From Stropharia rugosoannulata (taxonomy: Eukaryota; Basidiomycota; Agaricomycetes; Agaricales; Strophariaceae), in the NCBI GenBank assembly GCA_028532985.1, contig JANCIK010000002.1:1860001-1924000 (forward strand): DNA of 64,000 bases. Reading direction: 5' to 3'. A program made the translations under genes and the position numbers. The notes under the pieces were generated by a model. The model did not search any database and was not told where the DNA came from. It worked only from the letters and a program-made list of their open reading frames with translations. The first letter of the stretch is position 1; every line of letters begins with the position of its first letter. This document shows, in pieces, positions 4,649 through 55,061 of the stretch.

Positions 4649-5585
4649 ATGTCGAGAGGAAGGTCCCTGTCCCCCCGCGACTCATCCAAAGATGTCACCA
4701 TGGATATCGACGACCACTCACCAACCGAGAAGTCCGACGCCAAAGTAATTATTGTGAACAATCTGACACGCAATGTGGTGGAATCGCATCTCAGGACCAT
4801 ATTCAGCTTTTATGGACCAATTTCAAAAATCGACCTGCCACTGTTCGGTAAATGTAAGTATATCCACTCGCCAACAAGGCATGTCCGTACTGTGCTAATG
4901 CGCTCTAAACCTAGCTGGCCAAAATCGAGGAAAAGCTGCGCTCGAGTTCAAGGAGGCCACATCTGCCCGCAAGGCAGTATCGCACATGGACGGCGGCCAG
5001 CTCGACGGCGCCGTCGTCAAAGTAGAACTGTCGGACCTGCCCATACGATCCACCTCTCGGTCGCCTGTCCGCGTACCCCCTCGCGGGCCCAGGAATGCGC
5101 GCGACCGACCCCGCTCCTTCTCTCGTTCCCGCTCTCGCACACGCTCTCGTTCACCACCGCCACACTTCAGGCGTCGTAGCGGGCCTGATATGTATGCGCC
5201 CCGCGACTCGTACCGTGGAAGGCCTTATGGGCGGCGGGGCCCACCTGGCAGGGACAGCTACCGCCCAGGTCGATCGCGCTCTCGCACACGCTCGCGCTCG
5301 CCGCCACGTCGTGTTGGCAGCAGACCTCTGCCTCCGCGCAGGCGGTCGCCCAGCTATACACGCGGGGGATACAGCCGTCGCCGCAGTCGCTCGCGAAGCT
5401 ACTCTGTCAGATCCAGCCGTTCTCGTACCAGGTCCTTGTCGATCTCGCGATCACGCTCTAGGTCTTATTCCAGTGACTCTCGCTATAGTCGCAGCCGGAG
5501 CCGCTCTCGCTCACTTAGTAAAGGAAGGAGGAGCCATAGTAGGGACGACATTCGGGATAGCAGGTCCAGATCTCCGGCACCATAA
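4649..5585 (+). CDS. RNPS1: RNPS1-like SR protein with one RRM
   Basis: RNA-binding protein of the exon-junction/ASAP type, acting in splicing and mRNA quality control in the nucleus. Exon 1 is 4649-4853, intron 4854-4914, exon 2 4915-5585, splicing inside a Ser codon (GK-S-GQ). The RRM starts at about residue 30: RNP2-like VIIVNNLTRNV, loop FSFYGPISKIDLP and RNP1-like GKAALEFKEA. After the RRM the protein is a long RS domain with dozens of Arg-Ser dipeptides and a few RRRS blocks up to the end (SRSRSPAP). Order (short acidic N-terminus, RRM, RS tail) fits RNPS1/Srp1-like proteins. Symbol is by domain order, so an SR protein of another subfamily remains possible. Confidence 0.8.
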
Positions 5586-28051: not shown

Positions 28052-29262
28052 TGACAGGGCTGCTTTTTGGCTACGGGTGTAAACAGTCAGAAGGTCCGTT
28101 AGTGGAATAGCTGCGCGCGGGAAAACACAGAGGGACTAGAGTGAAGCCTGACTCGTAGTCTATAGCTATCAGCGCGCTTTATGACTACAAGCGCCTGCGC
28201 GCACCGTATTGCGAGAGGGATCGGTCAGCGAGCTGCACAGTCTAAAGTGCATAGTCTGGTCATCCGTGCGAGCGATAGAAGAGGCGTAGAACGGTTAAGC
28301 ACCAGCGAAGTGCGGTGTGAGTACAGCTGAGCGAGTACCAAGGGCGGTGTGAAGGGCTGTGCGCGCATCTCATGTGCGCGCATCGCGAAGGCAGAATTTG
28401 CCTAAGTCCACACATCATGTGACCGTGGCGGCGCGCATCAAAAGACGCGCAAAAGCCCGAGGGAACGAACGACATGCACGCAGCGAATGCCAAGGGGCTG
28501 GAACACTAGAGGGAAGCCCGGATGCGATGCGCGGACCTTTGGTCGCGCGTTGCTAGTATTTACTTCACCATATCATTAGTACACATGCGCGCATCGCATA
28601 TAAACCTGTATCCTTGTCTATAGTAATCTAAGCAATTGTCTACCCACTAGATCTGTGTGCTGGGTTCCGTCCCAGGCCGTCAGCGGGCTGTGTTTAGCTT
28701 TTGTTAGGGTCTTAACTGTGAAGTGTTTGTGAATCATAGGAGTTTTGGATAGCTTCTGGCCACCGGGTCATTTGGAGAGCTCAGTGAGGAGTCAGTACAA
28801 CCGTGTACGGAAACTCGCACTGTAGTGTTTAGACTGTGAGACTGCACCGCCGGGTGAAAGACTTTGGAGAGTCTTGGGATTGTTGGACTTTGGAGAGTCC
28901 GTGCATCGCACGAGGTCACCGGACCCGGAAGTGCGCGCAGCGAAGCCGTTCGCTAAAAACAATTTATTTCATTCATCATTTTGCCTAGCGTACGCCGCTA
29001 GCAACCGGGCTCTATCCGAGATTTACTAGAATTAAACCCCTCCTTACAAATGAACTTGCAGGCACTACTTGCTATTACAAAGACTAGAGGACACGAGGTG
29101 CGCGCATCGCACGTCCAGAACGGGAACCAGAGCAGAGCATAGATTATACTACCATTTAGTTGAGGGCGTTCGCTCGATCTAAGGGATAGGATCTCGCTCC
29201 GCTGGGTGTGTGTGTGTGTTGTGTTTCGCGATTTCGAGTCTAGCTACGCAGTAGACCTCTCA
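28052..29262 (+). repeat. 5' long terminal repeat
   Basis: Begins TGACAGGGC and ends GACCTCTCA. Aligns without gaps to 42724-43934 (offset 14,672). Three differences seen: G/A near 28120, G/A near 28158 and T/C near 28901, all at CpG. Contains a TATA-like ATATAAA at 28598-28604, so U3 is about 570 bases, and several TGCGCGCATC motifs (28360, 28376, 28432, 28586, 29099). Open frames inside it are identical in both LTRs and have no protein features. Confidence 0.95.
28598..28604 (+). promoter_or_regulatory. TATA-like element of the LTR promoter
   Basis: ATATAAA directly after a GCGCGCATCGC motif; the likely transcription start (R) is about 30 bases downstream. The 3' LTR has the same sequence at offset 14,672. 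Confidence 0.5.
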
Positions 29263-29264
29263 TC

Positions 29265-29281
29265 TGGAGCCCACCGCGAGG
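29265..29281 (+). other. tRNA primer binding site
   Basis: TGGAGCCCACCGCGAGG, starting with TGG (complement of CCA) two bases after the LTR. The matching tRNA 3' end would be CCTCGCGGTGGGCTCCA; which tRNA this is cannot be told from the window. Confidence 0.7.
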
Positions 29282-29447
29282 GGAAGGTTCAGAAATCTCA
29301 TTTAGTGTTTCGGGAACTACGGCTTGCGCCTATTACAAATAAATTACAAAAATTTCAAACAAAACGGGGACGAGTAATAAGCGAGGCAAATTTCCTGCGC
29401 CTTCATCGCTCGCCGAGCCAGAAGAAGCCAGACCATCCTTTGGAACG

Positions 29448-31307
29448 GTGCCTTCACGTGAGAGAACCACGAGGAGCAAGAAAGACGCTGAGCTGGTAGA
29501 GCCGTTGGTAATTACACCGACGCGAGACAGAAAAGCAAAGAAAAGAGCGAGGGAGGAAGCGCAGTTACAGATCGAGACTCAGGGATTAGCGCAGCGCATC
29601 CCAGGTGCGCTCACCGAAAGCGACTCGGAATTAAGAGTAGGGACTAGTGGATTTTGGGGACCACCATCTGGCATTGAATCAGAAGACCAATTAGTGGACG
29701 GTGATATTACACTTGAAACCGCACCATTCGGTACTTCTGATAGCCAAGCTACCCAAGACACCCCTCCTCCATTCTCGGAAGTATTTGGAACTGCTAAGAC
29801 ATCCGCGCAGCGCACGGTGGAAAATAGCGAAAGTGAAGCAGAGCGCGTAGCGAGAGATATATTTGAAGGAGACTTGTCAGATCTTTCAGGAAGCGAACGA
29901 AATTCACCCCCACGAGAACCAGAAACTATGCCTAAGGATATGTCCATGCCAGTACGCGGTGCGCGCGGCGCGCCGAGCTTCGATCCTGCTGCAGAGCGCG
30001 ATGAGCTGCCGCGGTACTTCGAGGACCTGGAGGATTGGTTTAAGCGCGTGGAGGTGACGGAGGACGATGAGAAGAGAGGATATGTAATCAAATATGTACC
30101 CATGCAGACGGCAGAGGAGTGGAAGAATTTACCAGGTTATGATACCAAGGGGTACGCGGAGCTCAAGAAAATGATTCTCAACGAGTACCCGGAGGTGATC
30201 AGCATTCAGACAGGGTCCATTGCACGGCTCAAGAAGCTTTGCAAGGAGAATCAGCGCATCTCGGAGGAAGACCTCCAGGTGTTGCTGGACTTCAAGCGCG
30301 CGTTCTTGGCCGAGGCCGCTAAGCTCACGAAAGCACCTACCCTGCTCGCGAATCATACCTTGGTGACTTACTTCACCAATAGTCTCACTGCGGGGTTCAG
30401 GGATCGTCTGTTTAATAAACTGGACATTGATTACACGACGCGCGCATCATTCGACAAGTTCTTGACTGAGCGCAATATACAGTTCACCGCACCTACTGGG
30501 GTGACGGTAGAAGCGCGCACCGAGGACATGTACCCTCTCAAACAAGTAGCCGAGATGGCGGAACAAATGGCCCGCACCAAGAACCCAAGCACTACGCTGA
30601 GCCTAGGGCGCGATAGCACTGATGGACTTATGCCGGTGCCCGCCATCAAGACTGAGGCTGCGGATGTTAGTTCGCTGCGCGGAGAGATTGAGGACCTGAA
30701 AGGGTTCGTTGCCTCCTTCAAGGATACCTTATCGTTAGTAGAGAAGACGGTGGCGAAGTCGAAGGAGTCAAGTAAGAAGGAATTAGAGGACATTATTCGC
30801 AATGTCATGGCTGTGCGCGCCGCACCGATGTCGGTGCCTGTACAACCAGTAGCCCCCATGATGCCCATGAGTGCACCAGGTTTCGGTGGACCACCGCCTA
30901 GGCCTTTCCAATACCAACAACGCCCGGAGCCCCGTTGCTTCTACTGCAAGCAGACGGGACATGTGGTTGCTGAGTGCATCGTACAGCAGCAAGACTTGTC
31001 AGCTGGAAGGATTGTCATCACAGAGGCGGGGCGCTTACAGCTACCTGACGGGTCGTCGATACCCTGGGACCCTTCGCGCGCGATTAAAGAGCGCGTCGAT
31101 GAATGGCATAAGAAGAACGGGCAGCCCGCGCAGCAAGCGTATATGGCACCTGTCCATCCCTCATACATGGGTATGCCTCCTAGCATGGTATATTCACAGA
31201 TGTACCAACCGGCCAGTTCCTTGGATGAGACCTATGAGGAGCAGATACGCGCACTTCAGCAAGAGCTGGAGAGTAAGAAGGCGTTTCTGAAGGAGCGCAT
31301 CTGCTAA
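29448..31307 (+). CDS. Gag polyprotein with CCHC zinc knuckle
   Basis: Nucleocapsid/capsid precursor of the retroelement. The open frame of about 619 codons has no ATG at its start (GTG at 29448); the first in-frame ATG is 29928 (MPKDMSMPVRGARG). The capsid-like region contains ELPRYFEDLEDWFKRVEV, LKKMILNEYPEV and NHTLVTYFTNSLTAGFRDRL. The zinc knuckle CFYCKQTGHVVAEC (C-x2-C-x4-H-x4-C) lies near residue 500, followed by a linker and a coiled-coil-like ALQQELESKK. It ends KERIC-stop at a GCGC site, and the continuation (AKTPEEVIEEQRQL) is in the next frame. Confidence 0.88.
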   Translation: MPSRERTTRSKKDAELVEPLVITPTRDRKAKKRAREEAQLQIETQGLAQRIPGALTESDSELRVGTSGFWGPPSGIESEDQLVDGDITLETAPFGTSDSQATQDTPPPFSEVFGTAKTSAQRTVENSESEAERVARDIFEGDLSDLSGSERNSPPREPETMPKDMSMPVRGARGAPSFDPAAERDELPRYFEDLEDWFKRVEVTEDDEKRGYVIKYVPMQTAEEWKNLPGYDTKGYAELKKMILNEYPEVISIQTGSIARLKKLCKENQRISEEDLQVLLDFKRAFLAEAAKLTKAPTLLANHTLVTYFTNSLTAGFRDRLFNKLDIDYTTRASFDKFLTERNIQFTAPTGVTVEARTEDMYPLKQVAEMAEQMARTKNPSTTLSLGRDSTDGLMPVPAIKTEAADVSSLRGEIEDLKGFVASFKDTLSLVEKTVAKSKESSKKELEDIIRNVMAVRAAPMSVPVQPVAPMMPMSAPGFGGPPPRPFQYQQRPEPRCFYCKQTGHVVAECIVQQQDLSAGRIVITEAGRLQLPDGSSIPWDPSRAIKERVDEWHKKNGQPAQQAYMAPVHPSYMGMPPSMVYSQMYQPASSLDETYEEQIRALQQELESKKAFLKERIC

Positions 31308-33084
31308 GACGCCTGAGGAAGTGATAGAGGAACAGCGTCAGTTAATAGCGACTATGAAAGCGAGCGTGGCGCTGCGCTCAGTCAGGGTTTCGATTGAGTC
31401 TGATGAAGGGAAGCGCGGCAGAGTTATGCGTAGCGGCTCTGATAAACCCAAGAACCCGGAGGGCGCAAACAAGAAGTTACCAATCAAGAATATACCCAGA
31501 GCATCAGTTGAGGACGCGAGTGATGATGAGGAAGATGAGTTGCGAGAAGTAGTGGAGGAGCAAGGTGCGCGCGCAGCTCAGTAAAGAAAGTAGTGTTCGA
31601 GGTTCCTGCAAAGGCTGGGCCTAGTGCACGACCAGCAGCAGTGCCATATGTAATGGTACCTCCTGCTGCGTTCGGAGAAAGTAAAACCTAAGGTTAGGGA
31701 AGAGCCCATACCTGTAGTAGAGAAGAGGAAGCCGGCCTATAAGCTGCGCACCTATCGAAGATGAGGTGCAGGCTGACGCAGTCCTCAAACACTTAGAAAA
31801 CCAGAAAATTGAGATCACGCAGGGTCAATTGTTAGGCATATCAACTGCAGGTTTCAGAAGAAAGTTCGTTGAGCGCATAGTACCAAGAAAGGTACCATTG
31901 GATTTGAACACGATGCACGTACTACAATTAGACTACGATGAAGAAGAGCGCGAGGTAGATGAAGCTATCGCGCGGTTAGCAGAAGAAGAAGAGGAAGAGG
32001 AGTTTATGCAGATGGATGAGTTACCAGTGGCCACTTTCCTTACTTGCTCAGATGAGCGCAGCGGACTGCAACCGGGGACCATCATCATGGAAGACCCGTA
32101 CGAGCAGTACGTCTCGACTCTGCAGCCAGGCGAAAAGCCTAAGGGACTTATTGTGGCGCGCGAATCGCACCATCTGAAGGCGGTATTTCCTCTCATCAAC
32201 GGCAAGGGACACGCAGAGACGTTGCTCGACAGTGGGTCGCAGATTGTGTCAATGGCACAGGACACCGCTGAGCGCTTAGGACTTAGTTGGGACCCGGACT
32301 TCACTATACGGATGCAGAGCGCGAATAAGCAGATGGAATCCACCAAGGGTTTAGCGCGCAACGTACCGTTTGTGTTTAACGGGCTGACAGTGTATTTACA
32401 AGTACATGTCATCAGCGCAGCAGCTTATGAGGTACTCTTGGGCCGGCCGTTCGAGATCCTCACGGAGAGCAATGTGAAGACGCGCGGCGATGGGACGGTT
32501 GAGCTTACGCTCACCGACCCCAACACACAGCACAAATTGGTCGTACCCACCTATAACCGAGGGTGTGGTCCCAAGATAGTGCAGCGCGAACCTAAGTTGC
32601 AGGACCCTGGCACGACGGAAAACCCTAACGCAGATCAGGATTTTCAATCCTCGATGATTTGATGCGTCAAGGAGAGGTTGCGTTGATGTTTGACAGAGAT
32701 GATCGCACGGGGAAAATAGAAATAGCGGGCAGCTACCAAAGAATAAGAAGCGGTTTGGGAGCGCTGAGCTCAGGGATGTATACATGGCTCAAGCAGTACA
32801 CGAGGCAAAGATGGAGGATGATGAGAAAGAAAGAATATACAAGTATTTTCAGCAGCGCGAATGGCGCAAGGAAGAAGTAGTCAAAGGAGAGCCTAGAGGG
32901 CAGTTCCGCATCGCACGAGGAACAGGTCCCTAGTAAAAGACAAGGAGTAACGCGTAAGCGCTTGACTGGCAAGAATGCCACCACCGTTACGGTGCTCGCA
33001 GGAAAGAAGTATAAGCCAGTGGCTGAGAAAGTCAGGCCCGTCTATCAAGATTTACCAGAGAAGTTTAGAATAGTGAGGAGATAA
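31308..33084 (+). pseudogene. Gag-pro linker and aspartic protease, frame broken
   Basis: Contiguous coding potential in five or more successive frame segments: 31308-31580, 31581-31670, 31671-31749, 31751-32630, then short segments to 33084. The long segment 31766-32662 carries the retroviral-type protease: LLDSGSQIVSM holds the catalytic Asp-Ser-Gly, VPFVFNGLTVYLQVHV and YEVLLGRPFEIL follow as expected. Later segments (DDLMRQGEVALMFDRDD, then VYMAQAVHEAKM, then KRQGVTRKRLTGK) are Lys-rich linkers before pol. The frame changes sit at GCGC runs and are treated in the findings. As written, no continuous gag-pol product is possible without frameshifting. Confidence 0.75.
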
Positions 33085-33104
33085 AAGGAGACCCACTAAA
33101 GGAC

Positions 33105-36100
33105 ATGCCGCAATTGTCACCACATCCGCCAGACTTCGTACCTACAGGTCGGTACACTGCTGAGCGCATGGAAGGGATTGACAAGGCGCATGAAGGGGAT
33201 TTCCTGTGGTCCGAGGAGCGCAAGTTGGTACATCAAGTTTTCATGCAGCAGAACGAGGCGTTCGCGTGGGATGACACAGAGAAGGGTAGATTCCGTACGG
33301 ACTTCTTCCCTCCAGTAGACATTCCCACTGTAGAGCACACGCCTTGGGTATTGAAGAACATTCCGATACCACCTGGGATGTATGAGCGCGTATGTGAATT
33401 CATCGCCACCAAGATTCGCGCAGGCACGTATGAGCCATCAAGCTCATCGTACCGATCGCGCTGGTTTACAGTGACCAAGAAAGATGGGGTCTCGTTCAGA
33501 ATTGTGCACAGTCTCGAACCGTTAAATGCGGTAACCATTGCACATTCAGGACTACCTCCAGCAGCGGAGAGTCTAGCGGAACACTTTGCGGGGCGCGCAT
33601 GTGGCGGCATCCTGGATTTGTATGTTGGGTACGATGAGCGGCTGTTAGCTGAGTCCTCTAGAGACTTGACTACATTCCAGACGCCGTTCGGTGCGCTGCG
33701 CTTAGTAACCCTACCTATGGGATGGACGAACTCCGTGCCCATCTTTCATGAGGATGTCGCATATATACTACGCGATGAAATACCTGAAGTTACAGAGCCC
33801 TATATAGATGATGTACCTATTAGGGGACCTAAAACGCGCTACGAGTTAGAAGGAGGAGGATATGAGACGATACCAGAGAATAAGGGAATAAGGAGATTTG
33901 TATGGGAACACGTGTTGAATGTCAACAGAATCGTGCAGCGCATGAAGTACTCAGGAGGAACATTTAGTGGAAAGAAGTCCATACTGTGCGCGGCTGAGAT
34001 AGTAGTGGTGGGGCACTTGTGCACGTACGAAGGGCGCAAGCCAGCACCTGATAAAGTGCATGCGATTCTCAATTGGGGACCATGCAAGAATATCAGTGAT
34101 GTGCGCGCATTCATGGGTACAATGGGTCTGCTACGGATTTACATCTCGGATTACGCGAAGCGCGCAGAGCACATACAGCGGCTATTGCGTGGGAAAGAGC
34201 CCTTTGAGTGGGGGCCCGCCCAGCAAGCTAGCATGGACTCGTTGAAAGACGGTGCGCGCAACGCACATTGCGTGAAACCACTGGACTACACCCTACCAGG
34301 ACCGATTACTTTGGCTGTAGACACATCATGGCGAGCGGTAGGGTTCTATATTTATCAACAAGACCCACAAAATTCGAAGAAGAGGGTATATGCGCGCTTC
34401 GGATCAATACTGTTAACGGAACGCGAGCAGCGCTTCTCACAGCCCAAACGGGAGTTGTATGGACTCCTACGTGCGCTACAAGCCTGTTATTATTGGCTCA
34501 TCGGTGCGCGCAAGCTGGTGGTGGAAACGGATGCCAAATACTTGAAGGGCATGTTGGATAATCCGGGCATGGGCCCTAACGCGACTATTAATCGCTGGAT
34601 AGATAAAATACTTATGTATCACTTCCAGTTGAAACATGTTGCGGGCAAAACCTTTGGTGCGGATGGTTTATCGCGTAGGGAAGGGCAACCTGGAGATGAG
34701 GTGTACGTGCACTCCGAAGAAGATGATGATCAGGAGGTGGGACCGCTCGAATATGAGAAAGTCTATGAAGATGACCCAGATCCCCTGGACTTTGAAGAAT
34801 TCAAAGAACAGATCGATGATCGTGGTGGGTATCTATACACCGGACTCCTCAACGAGTTGTTTGAAGGTCCCACTGCGCGCAAGTTACCAGAAGCACGCTC
34901 TATAGGCTGTTTCCAGCAGGAGCTCGAGCGCGCACGGAAAGAGACGGAAGCGGAAAAGCGGGCCGTGCGGGACTTCATACAGAAAGAGAGTGTGCCGCTC
35001 GCGCAGCGCGAGTACTTAGAGAAATTCATACTAGCGCACGCAATACCCGACTCCAGAATAGAGGATCTGGAGGATGAAGAGTACGATGAGCGCAACAGGA
35101 CGTCTGCAGGAAAAGACATGGACGAGAAATTGCCGATGATACGCTACTGGTTGCAGAATCCAACCACTAGGCCTAAAGGCATGACAGAGCGAGAATATCA
35201 GAATTTTACGAGGAATGCTCGTAACTTCTTCTTAGACAAGGATGGGCGGATGTACCGGAGATCCATAGACGCGCATAAGTTGGTGATAGATCAGGCGCAG
35301 CGGACACGCATGCTGCGCTCAGCGCATGACAGCTTGGGGCACAGAGGAGCGTACGCTACGCGCAAATTGCTAGCTGAGCGTTTCTGGTGGCCTGAGTTGG
35401 AAAGGGATGTCTACTGGTATGTGAAAACATGTCATGTCTGTCAGTTAAGGCAGAAGACGATCATCCAGATCCCGCGCACCGAGACACACACGCCGTCTAT
35501 CTTCCAGCAACTACACGCGGACACTATGCACATGTCCCCGGCCTCCAATGGGTATAATTACATAGTGCACGGAAGATGTGCGCTGAGCTCATGGGCAGAA
35601 GGGCGGCCGTTAAAGAAAGAGAATGCCCGTGCAATAGCGCAGTGGATATTCGAGGACATTATCTGCCGTTGGGGCTGTCTACAAGAAATCATCACAGATA
35701 ACGGTGGACCGTTCCGCGCAGCGCTCAAGTATTTAGAGAAGAAGTATGGGATTACAGGGATTACTATCTCCGCGTACAACTCGCAAGCGAATGGAAAAAT
35801 AGAGCGTCCTCATTGGGACATAAGACAGATGTTGTGGAAAGCGTGTGGAGGGACAGAAGGCGCGCATAAGCGTTGGAGTAGATTCTTCTACCATGTGTTG
35901 TGGGCGGATCGTATCACTGTGCGACGAGGGTTCGGGTGTTCCCCATTCTTCATGGTAACGGGCGCGCACCCCATACTACCATTCGACATAGCAGAAGCGA
36001 CTTGGCTGGTGAAACTACCAGATCGCGTACTGACTACGGAGGAGTTAGTAGGGTATCGCGCGCGCGCACTAGCCAAACATCGCGACACAGTAGAGGAGAT

Positions 36101-36587
36101 GCGCGCACGAGTATCAAAGACGAAAAGAGATGCGATCAGGGCATTTGAAAAGAAGCACTCGGCTAAAATCCGTGACTATGTGTTTAAGCCAGGAGATGTA
36201 GTGCTAATGAGGAACTCGGGCATAGAATCCAGTCTGAACCGTAAGATGCTCGCACGATGGAACGGGCCTTACATCGTTATCGCACGAAAAGACGGTGGAG
36301 CATACTTAGTGGCAGAGATGGATGGCTCTGTGTTGAAGGATAAGGTGGCGGCGTTCCGCCTCATTCCTTACTTTGCACGGAGGCAGCTGCGCTTACCAGA
36401 CGGTTTGGATGATATAATTGATCAGACCAAGGAGAACCTAGCTAAAATGTTAGAGGCACCGGACTATGAGCCAGCTATTCCCAAAGATTATATCTTTGAT
36501 GAGCCCGGTGTACCCTCGGGTAGCGGTGCGCTTACAGTGGAAGAAGATGAAGAAGACGATGATGACTGGGGCGAAGAAGACACTTAG
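33105..36587 (+). CDS. Pol: reverse transcriptase, RNase H and integrase
   Basis: Intact 1,160-codon frame. RT: WFTVTKKDGVSFRIVHSL, GILDLYVGYDE, LTTFQTPFGALRLVTLPMGW and the active site YIDDVP. RNase H: VDTSWRAVGFY, the Glu in KRELYGL and VETDAKYLKGML. Integrase: HHCC finger (HDSLGHRG ... CHVCQLRQ), then D-D-E in LHADTMHM, EIITDNGGPF and NGKIERPHW. The C-terminus contains WNGPYIVIARKDGGAYLV, a GPY/F-like module, and an acidic end; no chromodomain is seen. The order RT-RH-IN makes it Ty3/Metaviridae-like. It opens with its own ATG 20 bases after the last stop of the linker segment. Confidence 0.95.
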   Translation: MPQLSPHPPDFVPTGRYTAERMEGIDKAHEGDFLWSEERKLVHQVFMQQNEAFAWDDTEKGRFRTDFFPPVDIPTVEHTPWVLKNIPIPPGMYERVCEFIATKIRAGTYEPSSSSYRSRWFTVTKKDGVSFRIVHSLEPLNAVTIAHSGLPPAAESLAEHFAGRACGGILDLYVGYDERLLAESSRDLTTFQTPFGALRLVTLPMGWTNSVPIFHEDVAYILRDEIPEVTEPYIDDVPIRGPKTRYELEGGGYETIPENKGIRRFVWEHVLNVNRIVQRMKYSGGTFSGKKSILCAAEIVVVGHLCTYEGRKPAPDKVHAILNWGPCKNISDVRAFMGTMGLLRIYISDYAKRAEHIQRLLRGKEPFEWGPAQQASMDSLKDGARNAHCVKPLDYTLPGPITLAVDTSWRAVGFYIYQQDPQNSKKRVYARFGSILLTEREQRFSQPKRELYGLLRALQACYYWLIGARKLVVETDAKYLKGMLDNPGMGPNATINRWIDKILMYHFQLKHVAGKTFGADGLSRREGQPGDEVYVHSEEDDDQEVGPLEYEKVYEDDPDPLDFEEFKEQIDDRGGYLYTGLLNELFEGPTARKLPEARSIGCFQQELERARKETEAEKRAVRDFIQKESVPLAQREYLEKFILAHAIPDSRIEDLEDEEYDERNRTSAGKDMDEKLPMIRYWLQNPTTRPKGMTEREYQNFTRNARNFFLDKDGRMYRRSIDAHKLVIDQAQRTRMLRSAHDSLGHRGAYATRKLLAERFWWPELERDVYWYVKTCHVCQLRQKTIIQIPRTETHTPSIFQQLHADTMHMSPASNGYNYIVHGRCALSSWAEGRPLKKENARAIAQWIFEDIICRWGCLQEIITDNGGPFRAALKYLEKKYGITGITISAYNSQANGKIERPHWDIRQMLWKACGGTEGAHKRWSRFFYHVLWADRITVRRGFGCSPFFMVTGAHPILPFDIAEATWLVKLPDRVLTTEELVGYRARALAKHRDTVEEMRARVSKTKRDAIRAFEKKHSAKIRDYVFKPGDVVLMRNSGIESSLNRKMLARWNGPYIVIARKDGGAYLVAEMDGSVLKDKVAAFRLIPYFARRQLRLPDGLDDIIDQTKENLAKMLEAPDYEPAIPKDYIFDEPGVPSGSGALTVEEDEEDDDDWGEEDT

Positions 36588-36712
36588 GGATGCGAGCATC
36601 ATAGGAAGAAAGCGACCACAATATAATATATTGGGTAAAGAAGATGGGAATACAAAGAGAGCTAGCTACAGACGCCCCTTTAAGGCGTGCAGCGCACATT
36701 GAGCCAGGCTAT

Positions 36713-38021
36713 CTACTGGGCTGGTTTGTCCTCGGTGGCAGTAACGCCAGTAACGTCGAGGCTGCGCTGCAAGATGACAAGCTGCTCGACGAGGAGCGCG
36801 CGGCGCTTGAGGATGAAGTCGACCTTGTGGAGATCACAAATGATCTCTGCTTGTAAATCACCAATGAGGCGGCGCATCACCAACTCGGAGGGGTTACCCG
36901 TATTAAGGGGCTCCTTAAGGAGGATAGCGGCGGCATCAAGACAAGCATTGACCTTGTCATTGTCCAAAACGAGAGAAGTGCCTGAGGGAGAAGGGTTAGA
37001 AAAGATTAGCAAGAGAGTGGTGCGGTGCACGCACCTTGCATAATAAAAGGAGAGTCGGGGAACGTAGGAACGCCCTCTGAGCTCAGCCTGGCTTTCTTAG
37101 GAGAGGCTTCACCTGCGGCGGCGTCACGGAATGAGCGACGAAGCTCGGTCTGATGATAAGTCATGCCTCGACCAAGGGGACGAGAGCGGTAACCAGGAGT
37201 GTCTCCGCGCTCGCGCTGGTATTTCTATAAGAATCTAAGTGCGCGCAGCGGAGACGGGTCAAACACACACCTGTTTAGGAGTATCAGGAGGCGCGGCGCG
37301 CTTCTTGTTAGGGCTCGGCTCGGGTGTATGCTGCCTGCTGGGAGGACCTCCCTCAGTCGCGGCTTCAACTTTATCATCAAGGGCCATCTTTTTGAGGAGC
37401 ATGTAAAGTTGCATGTTAGTGATGTCTGGTAAAGAAGCTAAGGTTAGCCACACCGTCAGAGTCAGGAGATGTAGTACCTCCAGGCGCGGAGGCGGTCTCA
37501 AGGTCCGCAGTTGCGGAACGCGTAAGAACGCGAACGTTGCGCTGCGCGCACCAAAAAGGAGCTTGAGTATAAAAAGGTTTAGGAGAGGAAGATAAGCGCA
37601 CAGGTCCAGTAGGGGTATGGGTGCGCTGACGAGAAGCGGCAGCCTTGGCCTTGAGGACTTGTTCATGCAAGTTGATAAATGCGTTGGCGGCAGGGGAAAA
37701 GGAGCGAATGTGGTGGTCAGCCTCGAGCGACGTATAGATGGCGCGAGTCTCATTAAGGATCTCGATAGCTTCATTGTTGTTTATAACGCGAGTGATACCG
37801 CCGTGTGTGTCGCGCCAGCGGTTCTGCAATTGTGCCAGACAAAGTCAGTAACATACAACAAGGGAACCACGCGATGCGCGCACCAAATCGACAGCAAGCA
37901 GCTCCAGGCTGCCGGTGTAATTCGCAGGAGTGGCAGAGGCCAACCCACGAATGTCCTGGATCAGTGAGAGTTGATGCTTGACATTGGTGAAGTTAAACAG
38001 AGGAGCATGAGTAGTAGCCAT
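36713..38021 (-). CDS. Antisense gene B3 in the retroelement (unknown, spliced)
   Basis: Not recognised. ATG 38021 is 60 bases after a TATATAA. Exons join in frame: MATTHAPLFNFTNVKHQLSL... to LLAVDL; intron 37824-37883 (donor GTGCGCGCATC); NRWRDTHGGITRVINNNEA... to SAPG; a 54-base intron; DITNMQLYMLLKKMAL... to APPDTPKQ; an intron ending ...TTATAG; KYQRERGDTPGYRSRPLGRG... to PFIMQ; intron 36982-37034 (donor GTGCGTGCAC); GTSLVLDNDKVNACLDAAA... to TAG 36713-36715. About 330 residues, helical and charged, with Lys/Arg patches that could be nuclear signals. Five exons that all stay in frame over 1.3 kb argue for a real gene. Confidence 0.7.
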
Positions 38022-38080
38022 AGTGGTGGTTGAGAAAGTAGGAATAAAATGCGATGCGCTCATACAGAAACGGCGAGCGC

Positions 38081-38087
38081 TTATATA
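38081..38087 (-). promoter_or_regulatory. TATA box of antisense gene B3
   Basis: TATATAA on the minus strand, 60 bases before ATG 38021. Spacing is normal for a TATA promoter and it is independent of the LTR. Confidence 0.6.
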
Positions 38088-38550
38088 GCATTCACTGGGA
38101 TGATCAGCGCTGTGCGCAGCTGGTGACCGACCGAACAGCAGGCCCAAGGAGTTAAGGAAGGAGGGACTTTACAAAGGTCCAGATGGGTCATAGCACAGGG
38201 CTACACCTGTCCGACGTTACATTCACGGAGATTGAGTGGGATGGAAGGGACCTGAATACAAGAGCCCATATAGCAACGAGAAGAAGGGGGGAAGATCGTG
38301 CGCGCATCGCAGCAAAAGAGTGCGCGCATCAGAGGAGATGCAGGTCTTTCCCCGTTTGGCAAAATGATGTCTGTTTTGGGATTGATGCCGAAAATGCATA
38401 ACAATGTTACCCGACAGTCTTATTTCAAATACAGGGTCATGACACATGTACCAAGGAATAGATGCTAGCTATGACTATAGATAGTTATCAATGGAAAGAC
38501 AGCAAAATGTCAGTTCGGGAATTAAACATCCTAAGAAGTGATTGTCAGGG

Positions 38551-39123
38551 TCAGCGCAGCGCACGAGGAGAAAGACCCACAGGAAAGAATTCCTCCTGGT
38601 AAAAGACCTGGGCGGCATAGTGGAGTTGTTGGAAGTGTTCAGAGTGAGGGAGGGTGCCGTAGCGCTCAGCATCAGTAGTACCACACAAGCGCAGGACGAG
38701 CTCGCTATAGTGAAGTTGAGTGCACAAGTGCGAGATGCGAGGCGAATGACTGGTAGCTTCGGTTAGCGCCAGTGCCCGCTACAAGGATGTCAGAACTGTG
38801 CACGAGAAGGCTGGAAAAAGGGGACATGCGCGCACCGCATGGTCTTGAACATGACGCATCATGTCTAGGCAGACGGTCATGGGGAGCAGCGGTTCAGTCG
38901 CGGCCTCAAGAATAAAATGAAGGGCGCCTATGTAGATGCGGCAGACGCGCTCATGGTCATCAAGCGGAATATCAGCTAGCGCCCGCTTGGGTAGAGCAGC
39001 TAAGCGCAAGAAGGAAGGATCGGACCTTGCGCGTTGAAGGAGATTACTTTCGGTATCGAAGGAGGGCATGACGATAAAAGACATGTTCATTTGAAGGATC
39101 ATATATAGCACTAAACGATCCAT
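38551..39123 (-). CDS. Antisense gene B2 in the retroelement (unknown, spliced)
   Basis: Not recognised. Exon 1 from one of several Mets (39123, 39102 or 39084) includes FIVMPSFDTESNLLQRARSD and LDDHERVCRIYIGALHFIL, ending QDHA. Intron 38779-38835 starts GTGCGCGCATG and joins RALALTEATSHSPRISHL, then YSELVLRLCGTTDAERYG, ending GLSPRALR and TGA at 38551-38553. About 175 residues, helical, no membrane span. It begins where gene B1 ends (39141), so B1 and B2 may share a transcript or be one gene with an unseen intron. Confidence 0.55.
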
Positions 39124-39140
39124 CAGAGCCGCGCACGGGC

Positions 39141-39621
39141 TCAATCGTAGCTAATATCATCTACTACAAGGGCAGCGTCGGGATCTGTGTCTAGAATGGC
39201 GGTCCCTGTTGGTTCCGAGGGTGGGAGATTGTGAAAAGGCATGCCAAGATGGCTGTACCGATCGAGAATGTGAAGAGCGGCGTTGCTGAGCATGCGCGCA
39301 TCGAAATGATCATCGCTGAATCTGCGCTGAGCGCGGCCTTCGTAAAACACGATCGTCATGACTAAAGACAGGAATTGGCGATTGAAATCGATAAAGCGCA
39401 AAGGCAGTGTAATGCGATCCTGGAGGAAAACGTCAGCAGAAGAAGCGCTTGCATGAACATAAGGACTTTACCAGTGCGCGCACGAGGGATTGAGCAGACT
39501 GTAGAGGAAAGTGAAAAGGGCCGTTGTCGCAGTCCCCTGCGAGCTCCGCATGAACGGCGAGTTGTCTCAGTAAAACAGTGAATTGGCGAGCAACAGCGGT
39601 GCGCTGATATCGGAGAGCCAT
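39141..39621 (-). CDS. Antisense gene B1 in the retroelement (unknown, spliced)
   Basis: Not recognised. ATG 39621 (MALRYQRTAVARQFTVLLRQ), exon 1 to 39472, intron 39420-39471 (GTAAAG...CCAG), exon 2 DRITLPLRFIDFNRQFLSL ... ending VVDDISYD and TGA 39141-39143. About 142 residues with amphipathic helices. A TATAAAT at 39660-39666 lies 39 bases upstream and overlaps the internal PPT-like module, so promoter and PPT copy share sequence. Confidence 0.62.
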
Positions 39622-39641
39622 AACAGAGAGTAAAGAAGCTC

Positions 39642-39678
39642 TCAACTGGGGACAGTTGAATTTATAGTGGGGGGGAGA
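39642..39678. repeat. Internal copy of the PPT with hairpin
   Basis: TCAACT-GGGGAC-AGTTGA hairpin (39642-39659), an AT spacer, then AGTGGGGGGGAGA at 39666-39678. The same arrangement precedes the 3' LTR (42687-42723) with a hairpin TTGACT-GAGGAC-AGTCAA. The last 13 bases are identical in both copies. Confidence 0.75.
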
Positions 39679-40015
39679 GATGGCCTAGCCAAGCAGAGAT
39701 AAACCTAGGTGCTTAAGGAGATACTGCAGAGAGATCAGGAACTCAGGACAGGAGCAGAAGGTGATGGGCACATACAAGCAAGGGCGGATCATTCATGTGC
39801 GCGCATCGCACTTGTACTCGCTCAGGGAATATTACAGAAAATAAAGCACTTAGGATCACACAGGAAGGAGGCAAAAGATAAATAATTCCAAAGCATATTT
39901 AGGCTAGACAATAGCTATTCTACATATGCTAGATAGAATAGTAAGGGAGAGCACAAGAAAAGGGAAAGATAAGAGGAGAAAACAAGCGCCAAAAATGCGC
40001 GCCCCGCAGCAAGAC

Positions 40016-42113
40016 TTAGGCCTCCATGTGAACGACATCTTCTTCCTCAGCGGAGGCCTCAGGGCTCGAGTCGTTAACAACAACGGGAGAGGACTTGTAG
40101 GAACGGATGGGAGCTTTGCCTTTTCCTTTGCCTTTACCCTTGCCTTTGGACGTCGACTTCGGGACTTTGGAAGCCTTAGAAGGCTGGGGGGCAGGGACAA
40201 AGGAAGAAGGATCTTGACGCGGATGGTCGGGACGGTAGAAAGAAGAGGACAGCGGCGCGGACTCGATAGGGTGATCGGGATCCAATGGTTGGCAGAGCGC
40301 ATCATAGGAAGCGCAGAGCTGTTCGAGGTCCATGGATCGAAGGGCGTCGAATGTCTCGCAGTCAGTGAAGCGAGAACCAATAATAACATTAGTTGGCAGA
40401 GTCACTGCCATAGCCTGCGCGAGCTGCACAAGCTGGATGAGTTCGGCGAAGTAGAGGCGCTGAAGGCCTCGACGGGACTCTTCCGCGGCGCGCGCCTGCT
40501 GACCATAGGCCTCGAGACGGGCAAAGGAAGCTTGAAGCTCTGAAAAGAAGAGAAAGTCAGTAAAGTAGAAAGAAAAGATAAAAGATGCGCGCACCACGGG
40601 GGGAGGTGCGATACCAGCCAGAAGTCCCTTCTAGTGCGCTGTCAAGCTCAGCGCCGGTCATGGTATGGAGACAGGGACCTTGGCCCCCTAGGCGGCAACT
40701 CGCGCATTTCCGACCAGGACCGCGAAGGATACAAAAGTGTTTGAGGGAAGGAGTGGAAGAGGATTCGCCCTGAGGGCGCCCGCAAAGCGAGCAAGTAAAC
40801 CCGGGCTAAAGAAAGAAGTAATTAAACAAAATTTCGAAAGAGGAGAAAATAAAATGAAAAGACGAACGATGATGGCTTCGCGCAGCGCCTCCTCAGGTGG
40901 GAGTTGGGCCATGCTTATGGCGTCGGGTAAAGGGGCGCCAGCCAGTGCCAGGGACGCATGGTAGACGCCAGGCAGGAGATTGTAAATGGGGTAGGTTGAG
41001 CGGTACTGGGATTTGGAAGCATCGACACCCTTCAGGCGTGGAAGCTCCTCGAGGCCGCTGGGAATGGCCTCTACGGGGATGACCTTGGTATGCGATGCGC
41101 GCACCTTAGGAACGGCCGGAGAGGCGCGTACGGTGGAAGGCCCCGCTACAGCCTCCTGGGTCGCTAAATAAAATAAAAATAATAAGGGCGTCAAACAAAT
41201 GGTATAAGCTGGTAAAAGCAGAATGCCTTACCAGTACTAGCGGCCTTGCGCGTGCGTTTAACAAGGGGGATCACCGGGACTGGCAAAGTCGAGATAGGGA
41301 CGAGCGCGGCGCGCTTGCGCTTGGAGGGCGCAGCAGGCGCGGAATCGTCAAGGCGAGGAGATACGGGGTCTGGGGATGGAGGAGGAGGAGTCGGTGAAGG
41401 CGAGGCGCGCTTGCGTTTTGCAGGCACGGCGGGAGTGGGCTCGGTGGGCGCAGGGTCTGGAGAAGGAGGGGGCGGAGTTGACGAAGGTGAGGCGCGCCTC
41501 TCTTCGACGGGAGGCGCAGGGATGGTCTCCATAACTGTCCCGCTTCCAGAGGGCTCGCCCATCGCTACGTCGGGCCCAGTCGACGCCAAGGGCACGCATT
41601 GAAGACGAGGCTCAGGCTCGTCTCCAGGAACCCAGAGCGGAAGGAAGGCGGTGGCGAAAGCCCCCTGGTACGAGAGAAGCTAGGGAACGAGAAGCGCGCA
41701 TCGAATGTAAGCAGGGTGAAGAAGAAAAATGAAGAAAGAAAAAGGGGGCACCGGTTCGTGAGTGGGCTCTGAGTACCACACTGCTCGCCTAGGGGGGTCC
41801 TGTGAGTCCCAACCGAAGGAGGCGTTGCTATCGTTCAGGCTCAGAATAGAAAGAATAAGGGCAAGTTCCCGAATGCCAGCATGATGGGAAAGGTCCTGAG
41901 GAAAAGCTAGGACATGCGCTGTGAGACCCGCGCCCAGGGCGTCCCGATAGCTGTTGGCCGGCAGGCAGCGTCAAGAGAGTCAAGGTCGCCTAAGTCTTCG
42001 AGCGCGGCGAAATTGGTAAGGGCTGGGCGCAGGCGGTGGAAACGGTCCACGCCATCGCATTCGCGATCCTCGGTGCGCTGCGCGATAAACGAAAAAGCCT
42101 TTCTGAAGCCCAT
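40016..42113 (-). CDS. Antisense gene A in the retroelement: Cys-rich, five exons, one frameshift
   Basis: Not recognised. ATG 42113 (MGFRKAFSFIAQRTEDREC) lies 100 bases after TATATAAC. Exon 1 needs one base added or two removed near 41958 to continue into LTAHVLAFPQDLSHHAG and SQDPPRRAVWYSEP. Exon 2 (LLSYQGAFATAF...) carries Pro/Ser-rich repeats with two PAKRKRASPS-like basic blocks (nuclear signals). Exon 3 has IYNLLPGVYHASLALAG. Exon 4 is Cys-rich: TCSLCGRPQG ... HFCIL ... KCASCRLGGQGPC, six Cys in CxxC-x17-C-x9-CxxC-x7-C-like spacing. Intron 40540-40594 starts GTGCGCGCATC. Exon 5 has a coiled helix (LQASFARLEAYGQQARAAEE) and a Lys-Gly-Lys repeat, ending DVVHMEA. A nuclear DNA- or RNA-binding role is inference. 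Confidence 0.68.
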
Positions 42114-42211
42114 GAACGTCTTGTGGTCCAGTTTTGGAGAAGTGTGGAAAAACAATAGGGATTTGGAGAAGGAAGCGAGAGAAAGAAAGGACGGGAAGGG
42201 CAGAGGAACTT

Positions 42212-42219
42212 GTTATATA
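42212..42219 (-). promoter_or_regulatory. TATA box of antisense gene A
   Basis: TATATAAC on the minus strand about 100 bases before ATG 42113, followed by a pyrimidine-rich leader typical of fungal transcription starts. Confidence 0.6.
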
Positions 42220-42686
42220 CCCAGGAGAGAATAGTGAAGGAAAATTCTGGAGCATGAGAGAAGCTGAACGGCGATGAGCGCATGTCGAATAAACTTACCA
42301 GCGACATACTAGAATAGCGTGTAGTAAAAAGGAAGAACTAGCAGGGCCCAGAAAAGGAAAGGGCAAGGCTTGATCAGGAAGGTGACTCGAGAAGGGATGT
42401 AGGCTGGCCCGAAATAGTAATAATGGGACCATTAGGAGTAAGAGATTAGAAAACAAGCAATAGGCGCGGTGCGCGCGGACGAAGGGTTGGTCTAAAACAA
42501 GTCTAGTTCGGTAGAGGCCCAGTAAGGAGTGTCCGAGGGGGGGAAATCAGGGCGCCGAATAGAGATAGGATGTAGGAAGAAGGGGGGGGCACTGGGTAAG
42601 CCACAGACGGCAGTAACTAAGCCAGGACACAGTAGGATGGGGAAAATAGTGGACTGCTACTATAGAAGCGATGCGCGCATCTGAAG

Positions 42687-42723
42687 TTGACTGAGGACAG
42701 TCAAGATTTTAGTGGGGGGGAGA
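42687..42723 (+). other. 3' polypurine tract with upstream hairpin
   Basis: AGTGGGGGGGAGA (42711-42723) abuts the TG of the 3' LTR, as required for plus-strand priming. It is preceded by the inverted repeat TTGACT/AGTCAA with loop GAGGAC. Confidence 0.85.
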
Positions 42724-43934
42724 TGACAGGGCTGCTTTTTGGCTACGGGTGTAAACAGTCAGAAGGTCCGTTAGTGGAATAGCTGCGCGCAGGAAAACAC
42801 AGAGGGACTAGAGTGAAGCCTGACTCATAGTCTATAGCTATCAGCGCGCTTTATGACTACAAGCGCCTGCGCGCACCGTATTGCGAGAGGGATCGGTCAG
42901 CGAGCTGCACAGTCTAAAGTGCATAGTCTGGTCATCCGTGCGAGCGATAGAAGAGGCGTAGAACGGTTAAGCACCAGCGAAGTGCGGTGTGAGTACAGCT
43001 GAGCGAGTACCAAGGGCGGTGTGAAGGGCTGTGCGCGCATCTCATGTGCGCGCATCGCGAAGGCAGAATTTGCCTAAGTCCACACATCATGTGACCGTGG
43101 CGGCGCGCATCAAAAGACGCGCAAAAGCCCGAGGGAACGAACGACATGCACGCAGCGAATGCCAAGGGGCTGGAACACTAGAGGGAAGCCCGGATGCGAT
43201 GCGCGGACCTTTGGTCGCGCGTTGCTAGTATTTACTTCACCATATCATTAGTACACATGCGCGCATCGCATATAAACCTGTATCCTTGTCTATAGTAATC
43301 TAAGCAATTGTCTACCCACTAGATCTGTGTGCTGGGTTCCGTCCCAGGCCGTCAGCGGGCTGTGTTTAGCTTTTGTTAGGGTCTTAACTGTGAAGTGTTT
43401 GTGAATCATAGGAGTTTTGGATAGCTTCTGGCCACCGGGTCATTTGGAGAGCTCAGTGAGGAGTCAGTACAACCGTGTACGGAAACTCGCACTGTAGTGT
43501 TTAGACTGTGAGACTGCACCGCCGGGTGAAAGACTTTGGAGAGTCTTGGGATTGTTGGACTTTGGAGAGTCCGCGCATCGCACGAGGTCACCGGACCCGG
43601 AAGTGCGCGCAGCGAAGCCGTTCGCTAAAAACAATTTATTTCATTCATCATTTTGCCTAGCGTACGCCGCTAGCAACCGGGCTCTATCCGAGATTTACTA
43701 GAATTAAACCCCTCCTTACAAATGAACTTGCAGGCACTACTTGCTATTACAAAGACTAGAGGACACGAGGTGCGCGCATCGCACGTCCAGAACGGGAACC
43801 AGAGCAGAGCATAGATTATACTACCATTTAGTTGAGGGCGTTCGCTCGATCTAAGGGATAGGATCTCGCTCCGCTGGGTGTGTGTGTGTGTTGTGTTTCG
43901 CGATTTCGAGTCTAGCTACGCAGTAGACCTCTCA
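42724..43934 (+). repeat. 3' long terminal repeat
   Basis: Full-length copy of the 5' LTR, same length, TG...CA ends, differing at three seen CpG sites. Followed by GCGT. Confidence 0.95.
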
Positions 43935-55000: not shown

Positions 55001-55061
55001 GATGCGTTTGGAAGAACTTAGTGTAAAGACGAAGGGAAGGATTCTTCGAGGAGAATTGTAA
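49009..55061 (+). CDS. Helitron transposase: Rep HUH endonuclease plus Pif1-type helicase
   Basis: Rolling-circle transposase, apparently intact across about seven exons. N-terminal Cys-rich DUF6570-like region (VVCAACAREIY, CKECLNRLKK, FALANDMWIG). Helitron_like_N region: FRNDPHFPFQVFGVCQKR and INTLGPSCEERATNIAADPY. HUH motif in TQGRGSLHLHMLLWL and the tyrosine pair in WYITNYATKKQ. Joins: A-AT after EEIS, LVRG to TYKCKRC, VS-E to CETEET, GIS to EVDIPQLRML. Helicase: Walker A GEGGTGKS, Walker B FLILDEISML, GDFYQLPPVAKNG, LTEQMRV, and late motifs YAFTDYKSQGQTLGAII and YVALSRSRG. Ends RILRGEL. First exon not found, so the start is the limit of the open frame. Confidence 0.88.

Follow-up and report, generated by a model that had tools for sequence, protein, structure and literature searches.

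Between its pol and 3' LTR, a recent 15.9-kb Ty3-type LTR retrotransposon of Stropharia rugosoannulata carries four protein-coding genes, g1 to g4, on the minus strand. It lies in a stretch of 64,000 nucleotides that was analysed as a whole (hereafter the window). The four genes hold eleven short GT-AG introns in total, each has its own conserved TATA box, and they behave as resident accessory genes, not as occasional cargo. We regard the anatomy of the element and the selection on its antisense genes as practically certain. The novelty is a multi-gene antisense set, predicted to be spliced and separately promoted, antisense genes at such a position being already known. An earlier sequence-only reading had proposed four minus-strand units here; all are present, with exons that join via GT-AG introns, but g4 is frame-broken in the window copy and the start of g2 is most likely downstream of the one proposed (39123).

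The element has TG...CA LTR ends, a short target duplication and gag, protease and pol, and is a Ty3-type LTR retrotransposon (Table 1). The two LTRs differ by 3 mismatches over 1211 bp. Pfam matches follow the order protease, RNase H and integrase zinc domain, which is the Ty3-type layout; the gag match to PF00098 (E 0.003, 18 bits) falls under the cut-off of that model (20.8). No reverse transcriptase (RT) model was matched in the window copy at E 0.01 with Pfam, and RT was assigned by position. The pol frame encodes 1172 aa in the window copy, and many of the other listed copies have one of 1322 aa.

Table 1. Coordinates of the element and of its antisense genes within the window
Feature	Position	Strand	Remarks
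5' LTR	28052..29262	+	1211 bp, TG...CA ends, target duplication GCGT on flanks
Probable tRNA primer-binding site	29265..29283	+	2 bp past 5' LTR; assigned by position alone
gag open frame with CCHC zinc knuckle	29343..31307	+	ORF; PF00098 weak
Aspartic protease open frame	31721..32662	+	PF13975, E 2e-8
pol (RT, RNase H, integrase)	33069..36587	+	PF17917, PF17919, PF17921
g1	36713..38021	-	six exons, 345 aa; intact in 25/28 copies
g1 exons (model)	38021-37884, 37823-37602, 37541-37478, 37425-37271, 37224-37035, 36981-36713	-	
g1 TATA box	38082..38087	-	28/28 copies
g2	38551..39069	-	two exons, 39069-38836 and 38778-38551; 153 aa from conserved ATG
g2 TATA box	39102..39107	-	28/28 copies
g3	39141..39621	-	two exons, 39621-39484 and 39419-39141; 138 aa; intact in 22/28 copies
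g3 TATA box	39661..39666	-	27/28 copies; stretch deleted in the remaining copy
Internal copy of terminal polypurine-tract segment	39645..39678	+	minus-strand reading contains g3 TATA box
g4	40016..42113	-	five exons; frame-broken in window copy
g4 exons (model)	42113-41752, 41679-41232, 41163-40868, 40805-40598, 40539-40016	-	
g4 TATA box	42214..42219	-	8/8 copies
Terminal polypurine-tract segment	42690..42723	+	adjoins 3' LTR; read directly; also in L002-L006, L008, L009
3' LTR	42724..43934	+	LTR comparison
Palindrome TGCGCGCA	28052..43934	.	30 dispersed copies

Retroelements are normally without introns, which they cannot keep because their genome is copied from RNA. The packaged, reverse-transcribed RNA of an LTR retrotransposon is the plus strand, and introns on the minus strand survive each cycle because this RNA does not splice them out. 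As was expected of such introns, the five of g1 (46-60 nt) are present, with GT-AG at all of them, in 28/28 copies. A branch-point-like word, CTRAY, was found in 25-28 of the 28 copies for 6/7 introns of g1-g3 (shuffles 0.09-0.19); it is absent from g1 intron 4 (0/28 copies) and from g4 introns 1 and 3 (0/8 copies), and occurs in g4 intron 2 in 2/8 copies. The three TATA boxes proposed earlier (g1, g3 and g4) are kept among the copies, as is that of g2, whose spacing to the ATG is short (38 nt only). Two upstream starts of g2 were rejected: in 20/28 copies, deletions of 1-2 bp disrupt the frame that opens at 39123 ahead of 39069, and 39084 is not an ATG in 11/28 copies. The ATG at 39069 is present in all 28 copies, and g2 is intact from there in 19.

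The antisense region has at least 53 matches in the host genome (48 Mb). dN/dS of g1-g3 was computed on 231 pairs among 22 of 28 copies (L012, L017, L019, L028, L029 and L030, i.e. near-duplicates, partial or interrupted copies, were left out), with the g2 alignment trimmed at both ends; columns absent in the reference copy were dropped before counting and frameshifted copies were compared as aligned. Values were 0.10 for g1 (mean dS 0.138), 0.14 for g2 (0.151) and 0.17 for g3 (0.176), versus 0.07 for the end of pol, for which L005, L012, L023, L025, L029 and L030 (6/28) were left out. As the dS of g1-g3 matches that of pol (mean 0.140 in its C-terminal part), the genes travel with the element. 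Other copies thus bear out the sequence-only reading, with conserved frames and introns and dN/dS well below 1. These genes are aORF-3R, additional ORFs antisense to gag-pol that lie between it and the 3' LTR, are present in most copies (as scored for g1) and are conserved like the other element proteins.

Variable sites at codon positions 1/2/3 number 65/34/162 in g1, 44/27/67 in g2 and 45/20/65 in g3, and indels among copies lie mostly in introns and gaps. Chance frames were ruled out for g1, the one gene examined in this way, by wrong-frame readings, which gave dN/dS of 0.98-3.44 with one exception. This exception is the sense frame whose third positions coincide with those of g1 (dN/dS 0.15); its median of 8 stops rules out coding in that mirrored frame. 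In this layout any minus-strand transcript would be complementary to the genomic RNA, and convergent transcription could yield double-stranded RNA by which the element is limited or tuned; transcripts and not proteins would then matter, a view raised for plant antisense ORFs in PMC7264820. The third-position excess, the low dN/dS of g1-g3 and the placement of indels argue against it, since a function at the RNA level would not preserve codons; we hold it very improbable that antisense RNA is the sole role, though it could act additionally.

The genes had been described as cargo, and they are indeed carried antisense. They are nevertheless resident: of 39 pol copies that were scored, out of 461 candidates, 38 have g1 antisense within the next 2.5 kb, and in 30 of those 38 it lies 130-139 bp after pol. 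Introns and TATA promoters also resemble those of ordinary host genes, as would be the case for host genes that had been transduced a single time and had since become passengers of no use to the element, but the purifying selection across copies, the conservation in subfamily B (see below) and the constancy of g1 after pol leave such an origin with very little credit. No g1 locus away from pol was found among the 93 of 348 g1 matches typed (80 loci), a check for which the 39 pol copies were the sole starting point.

The fourth gene has a history of its own. In the window copy, a 7-bp deficit in exon 1 breaks its frame; it reads through in 6/8 complete copies and encodes 613-614 aa in the three intact copies read. 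Its dN/dS is about 0.2 (diverged pairs), and some copies differ from each other far more in g4 than in the rest of their sequence, exon 1 showing a dN of 0.15-0.53 and a dS of at least 1.7 in 4/5 pairs within family A, that of the window element. The g4 segment sits between the terminal polypurine-tract segment and an internal copy of it, which match at 28/34 positions without gaps (alignment score 44; mean 20 and maximum 36 in 300 shuffles). This internal copy is conserved and also present in subfamily B, and the segment that it delimits differs between lineages, between which g4 has apparently been exchanged, as judged from these patterns of divergence. Such a flanked, lineage-variable segment might also be expected if an independent mobile element, with genes of its own, had landed between pol and the LTR and were hitchhiking there. 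We consider this highly unlikely: no inverted repeats of at least 60 nt were found in 20000-55000, Pfam recognised no transposase domain in the four products, and the repeat on either side is the polypurine tract of the element itself, a sign of template switching inside the retroelement.

The antisense genes extend to related elements. A copy of subfamily B (L031) has all four, in unchanged order and strand and with most exon boundaries matching; per aligned stretch, g1 matches at 55-85 %, g2 at 63-76 %, g3 at 60-72 % and g4 at 31-56 %. The most diverged pol relative fetched in this group (L039) has a match to g1 only, split by about 1 kb, with no match to g2-g4 in the 3.8 kb beyond g1, and L040 has only the end of g1, followed by another Ty3-like element. 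A more distant family (C) carries different antisense genes, apparently spliced, with no recognisable similarity to g1-g4 in tblastn (best E 0.24). For family D, represented by one stretch (L033, integrase 46 %), nothing better than E 1 was obtained against g1-g4; as its element ends are not established, it was not counted as being without the genes.

Three families each have their own dispersed palindromic word, rare or absent in the other two: TGCGCGCA in A, CTCMGCKG in B and ACCSGGT in C. These words were discovered and counted in the same sequences. The A word occurs 23 times in 14.7 kb (dinucleotide shuffles: mean 0.48, maximum 4 in 100) and has no occurrence in the tested B and C copies or in the remaining 48 kb of the window; the 13-mer TGCGCGCATCGCA occurs 337 times in the genome and its reversed control not once. 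The B word occurs 42 times in 6.6 kb of L031 (shuffle mean 1.7, maximum 7) and is weaker in L039 (10 in 6.3 kb). For the C word the count is small (6 in 3.3 kb; shuffle mean 0.4, maximum 3) and both C copies are near-identical. In both the window element and L031 the sites are isolated and spread out, not in tandem repeats. With an exonic fraction of about 0.61 in both, 10 of the 12 A sites of the antisense region are non-exonic, against 20/36 for B, where 16/36 sites lie in approximate exons and no clear avoidance of exons is seen.

As to what the products do, Pfam returned for the four only a sub-threshold match to Stm1_N (E 1.3). With 8000 candidates scored per query, homologues of g1 and g4 were not found at E 0.001 in a collection of some 5.8 billion proteins, but this collection returned no proteins of the present genome either, so the result says little about fungi. 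Viral contigs scanned with g1 and part of pol gave no relative, and a PDB sequence search with g4 gave nothing at E 1. Predicted structures are of low confidence (pLDDT 52 for g3 exon 2 and 57 for g4 exon 1). In the absence of a domain or homologue in the products tested, a nuclear role rests on basic stretches, i.e. those of the g1 linker (KKR, PKKAR) and two KRKR stretches in g4, and on a putative Cys/His cluster in g4, which also has GK repeats. We lean towards the products being nuclear regulators with a regulatory role in general.

Our preferred model runs as follows. After integration, g1-g4 would be transcribed by host RNA polymerase II, starting at their internal TATA boxes; the mRNAs would be spliced, and the products would work in trans within the nucleus, targeting DNA or RNA of the element itself, with transcription control or anti-silencing as the effect. 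The family-specific palindromes would be likely recognition sites for an element protein; g4 exon 1 varies strongly among A copies while the A word is constant, which argues against g4 as its reader. Sequence-specific anti-silencing by element products through the palindromes is possible, though on balance we doubt it. The full proposition is about as doubtful: a fungal Ty3 clade would own an antisense accessory module of intron-bearing nuclear regulators that read, as self-recognition (anti-silencing), a palindrome spread by each family over its introns, gaps and LTRs, with g4 passing between lineages by exchange at the duplicated polypurine tract. Equally tentative is that g1-g4 serve the replication cycle (RNA export, packaging or the preintegration complex), the palindromes being RNA dimerisation or packaging signals or having another RNA role. 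The palindromes do lie within the genomic RNA, LTRs included, the divergence of g1-g3 keeps step with that of pol and their dN/dS is close to the pol value, and a comparison with retroviral accessory proteins such as Rev and Tat is drawn in PMC7264820; on the other side, a gene on the opposite strand is no part of the genomic transcript and requires a promoter of its own.

Among known systems, the closest in position are plant Ty3 elements with additional antisense ORFs, i.e. Grande (gene23), RIRE2, Retand (TRP28) and PvRetro13; these ORFs lie between pol and the 3' LTR in most copies, as here, and the Grande product, with a promoter of its own, is nuclear (PMC7264820, PMC11963269). The fungal element differs by four intron-bearing genes with four separate conserved TATA boxes, and the TRP28 domain of Retand (PF04195) is absent from its products. 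No word starting with "intron" occurs in the main text of PMC11963269, and family-specific words are not described for the plant elements in the available parts of these two papers. Boty of Botrytis cinerea, another fungal LTR element, is reported to have one additional antisense gene, brtn, where four are found here (named in PMC7264820; title cited in PMC8365987). The claim that no such fungal element is known holds for a multi-gene spliced cluster, none having been found in the open-access papers searched, but must be narrowed, given the single antisense gene of Boty.

The HTLV-1 HBZ transcript is spliced, and VANDAL is a DNA transposon. HBZ is likewise a retroelement antisense gene with a nuclear product, but a single one in an animal retrovirus (PMC11963269), and no homology is claimed. 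VANC/VANDAL of Arabidopsis combines an anti-silencing gene with family-specific short words in intron, intergenic and terminal regions (PMC5735166); an accessory gene and an enriched family-specific word may be shared by analogy, without homology being claimed, but the words form tandem arrays there and are dispersed palindromes here. Terminons and bdelloid LTR elements also have extra ORFs, captured with recognisable domains (GDSL, DEDDy, others), but an antisense spliced cluster is not described in the parts of PMC6431247 and PMC5408684 available.

Here, introns are retained by placing the genes on the non-packaged strand, and a retroelement can thereby maintain a set of accessory genes, with introns and putative promoters of their own, through many rounds of copying. 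The module may help the element to control its own activity in the nucleus; if so, the antisense strand would be what permits regulatory genes that are spliced and have separate promoters. No function has been assigned to plant antisense ORFs in the years since they became known. The fungal set offers a regulator hypothesis that binding assays can test directly, since one 48-Mb genome contains dozens of copies along with a sister subfamily and a distant family with other antisense genes, each with a different palindrome.

The four minus-strand genes located between pol and the 3' LTR of the window element (g1 to g4) were rebuilt as gene models from the sequence, and their intactness was counted in 28 copies spanning g1-g3. 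All splice sites of the models are GT-AG, and the four genes together contain eleven introns, with lengths of 46-72 nt in the window. Gene g1 is open throughout in 25/28 copies (L030 was scored as intact despite an in-frame deletion of 117 bp), and its five introns have kept GT-AG in all 28 although their lengths shift (43-61 nt). For g3, 22 of the 28 copies are open throughout and 26 have a GT-AG intron, the two others starting with GC and AT, respectively; the start of g3 is missing from L028. Read from the ATG at 39069, which is common to all 28 copies, g2 is open throughout in 19; seven others carry a one-base insertion near the end, which alters the C-terminus, and two a late stop. A model starting at ATG 39084 was rejected (only 10/28 copies intact). 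Finally, g4 is open throughout in six of eight complete copies, the exceptions being the window copy, whose exon 1 is 7 bp short and therefore out of frame, and L009, with a frameshift and two altered donor sites.

Features of the window element and its surroundings (window coordinates)
Feature	Position	Strand	Remark
LTR retrotransposon	28052-43934	+	gag, protease and pol on + strand
g1	36713-38021	-	
g2	38551-39069	-	
g3	39141-39621	-	
g4	40016-42113	-	
TATA box g1	38087	-	66 nt before start codon; kept in 28/28 copies
TATA box g2	39107	-	38 nt before start codon; kept in 28/28 copies
TATA box g3	39666	-	45 nt before start codon; kept in 27/28 copies
TATA box g4	42219	-	106 nt before start codon; kept in 8/8 copies
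Internal copy of polypurine-tract segment	39645-39678		between g3 and g4
Terminal polypurine-tract segment	42690-42723		partner of internal copy
DUF6570, Helitron_like_N and PIF1 helicase genes	49405-55061		Pfam; Helitron-like, low-GC DNA

Selection was assessed on 231 pairs from 22 of the 28 copies, giving dN/dS values of 0.10, 0.14 and 0.17 for g1, g2 and g3; the last 1.4 kb of pol gave 0.07 (22 copies). dS was similar across g1, g2, g3 and pol (0.138, 0.151, 0.176 and 0.140). Most variable sites of g1-g3 fall at third codon positions, and indels lie mainly in introns and gaps. Four control frames of g1 yielded dN/dS of 1.55, 3.44, 0.98 and 3.19. In the one sense frame left, the value was 0.15, a low figure that arises because its third positions coincide with those of g1, and this frame contained a median of 8 stops. 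For g4, dN/dS was 0.18-0.22 in diverged pairs and, based on few changes, 0.08-0.61 in near-identical ones.

Each gene is preceded by a TATA box, and the spacing in g2 leaves space for a very short leader only. The word CTRAY was found in g1 introns 1-5 of 28, 25, 28, 0 and 28 of the 28 copies, in the g2 and g3 introns of all 28, and in g4 introns 1-4 of 0, 2, 0 and 6 of eight copies, so that part of the introns lack this simple word. By established biology, introns on the minus strand are untouched in plus-strand genomic RNA.

The window copy itself, from an assembly of 48.0 Mb in 20 contigs, has LTRs of 1211 bp that end in TG..CA and show 3 mismatches between the pair (0.25%), with GCGT duplicated at the target site, which indicates a recent insertion. 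It lies in low-GC DNA adjoining Helitron-like genes. Pfam matches to protease, RNase H and the integrase zinc domain follow the Ty3 order; no Pfam model matched its RT at E 0.01.

The distribution of the cluster was surveyed through pol (39 copies scored among 461 candidates). Of these, 38/39 have g1 in antisense orientation no more than 2.5 kb from pol, and in 30 of them it lies 130-139 bp after pol; the sole exception is a pol cut short (C13:1490768), with no g1 within 2.5 kb among the matches listed. Eight scored copies belong to B (pol amino acid identity 90-91%), the sister subfamily of the window element's family A, and in five of them the nearest typed g1 match is an upstream exon about 1.0 kb away. 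L031, which represents B, has all four genes in unchanged order and strand, with diverged proteins and exon breaks matching those of A within tblastn resolution. Exon 1 of g4 in L031 (~4960-5457, - strand) reads on where A has its first g4 intron, which was either gained in A or lost in B. In L039, whose integrase is more diverged (86%), only g1 was matched, with about 1 kb inserted, and g2-g4 had no match in the next 3.8 kb; L040 has the end of g1, followed by another element.

The more distant family C (L032, L034-L038; integrase 62%) carries other minus-strand frames in the 3.2 kb after pol, with TATA words ~55-70 nt before likely starts. Third-position bias is present in parts (1680-1561: 7, 1, 0; 1440-1321: 9, 3, 2; 960-841: 13, 4, 5) and absent from the remaining stretches. 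These candidate antisense genes differ from g1-g4 and are apparently spliced. Family D (46%), represented by one stretch in which element ends are not established, showed no such antisense genes.

Some copies of A differ far more in g4 than in the rest of the element. Its identity is 67-99% over alignable parts in copies whose g1-g3 are at 92-96%; between L002 and L006, dS is 0.095-0.144 in pol and g1-g3 and 0.72 in g4, with g4 exon 1 saturated, and L003 and L004 have similar g4 (dS 0.028). The best reading of these comparisons is that diverged lineages have exchanged g4 as a module, with template switching as the probable route. The internal polypurine segment, close to the edge of the exchanged stretch, is identical to the terminal one at 28/34 ungapped positions. 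It follows the strict pattern in 25/28 copies (two are one base off and L028 lacks the stretch), and L031 carries the same pair, at 3070 and 5864, placing it in both subfamilies. Ty1 and HIV possess a second, internal start of plus-strand synthesis, and by analogy the internal segment may serve as such a start.

A further trait is a family-specific word. The palindrome TGCGCGCA occurs 30 times in the window element versus ~0.5 expected, and is absent from the remaining 48 kb of the window. Three families each have a dispersed, palindromic, CpG-containing word, rare or absent in other families. These words were discovered and counted in the same sequences (14.7 kb of A; 6.6 kb of L031, B resting mainly on this copy; 3.3 kb of C, with two near-identical copies): the A word, TGCGCGCA, numbers 23 in A, 0 in B, 0 in both C copies, 1 in L033 (D) and 0 in the window outside the element; the B word, CTCMGCKG, 7, 42 (36 sites), 0, 3 and 7; and the C word, ACCSGGT, 1, 0, 6 per copy, 1 and 2. 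Shuffling within the own family gave means of 0.48, 1.7 and 0.4 for the A, B and C words (maxima 4, 7 and 3). L039 has 10 B words in 6.3 kb, weaker than L031. Genome-wide, the 13-mer TGCGCGCATCGCA was found 337 times, not all assigned to elements, and its reversed control 0 times. Beyond position 750 (oriented), L040 contains GTTTCCGA 10 times versus 0.26 expected. The stretch lies within or close to a different Ty3-like pol and may represent a further family that has a word of its own.

The A word exactly opens three of the eleven window introns (GTGCGCGCA), i.e. g1 intron 1 and those of g2 and g3, and 10/12 A words of the antisense region lie outside exons. Diverged A-type g4 segments bear it at differing positions, suggesting that individual sites come and go and the word itself persists. 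TGCGCGCA is scarcer in L026, L029 and L030 (4 each). L030 also has GTGTGT at one site in place of the GTGCGC of most copies, as if CpG had been lost by deamination.

Searches of open-access PMC papers found no fungal element described as carrying a cluster of spliced antisense genes. They did bring up plant antisense ORFs and the brtn gene of Boty. In anatomy the window element resembles these plant elements, among which Grande has an antisense product that is nuclear and has its own promoter (PMC7264820). The VANC system of VANDAL transposons likewise pairs a gene with family-specific short words, the protein binding a nine-base word in VANDAL introns, intergenic regions and ends (PMC5735166). 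Because the word persists within A despite the variation of g4, it could be read by one of g1-g3, by a product of gag-pol or by a protein of the host. We infer that the g1-g4 products are candidate nuclear regulators, which might act against silencing, in transcriptional control or in the handling of RNA.
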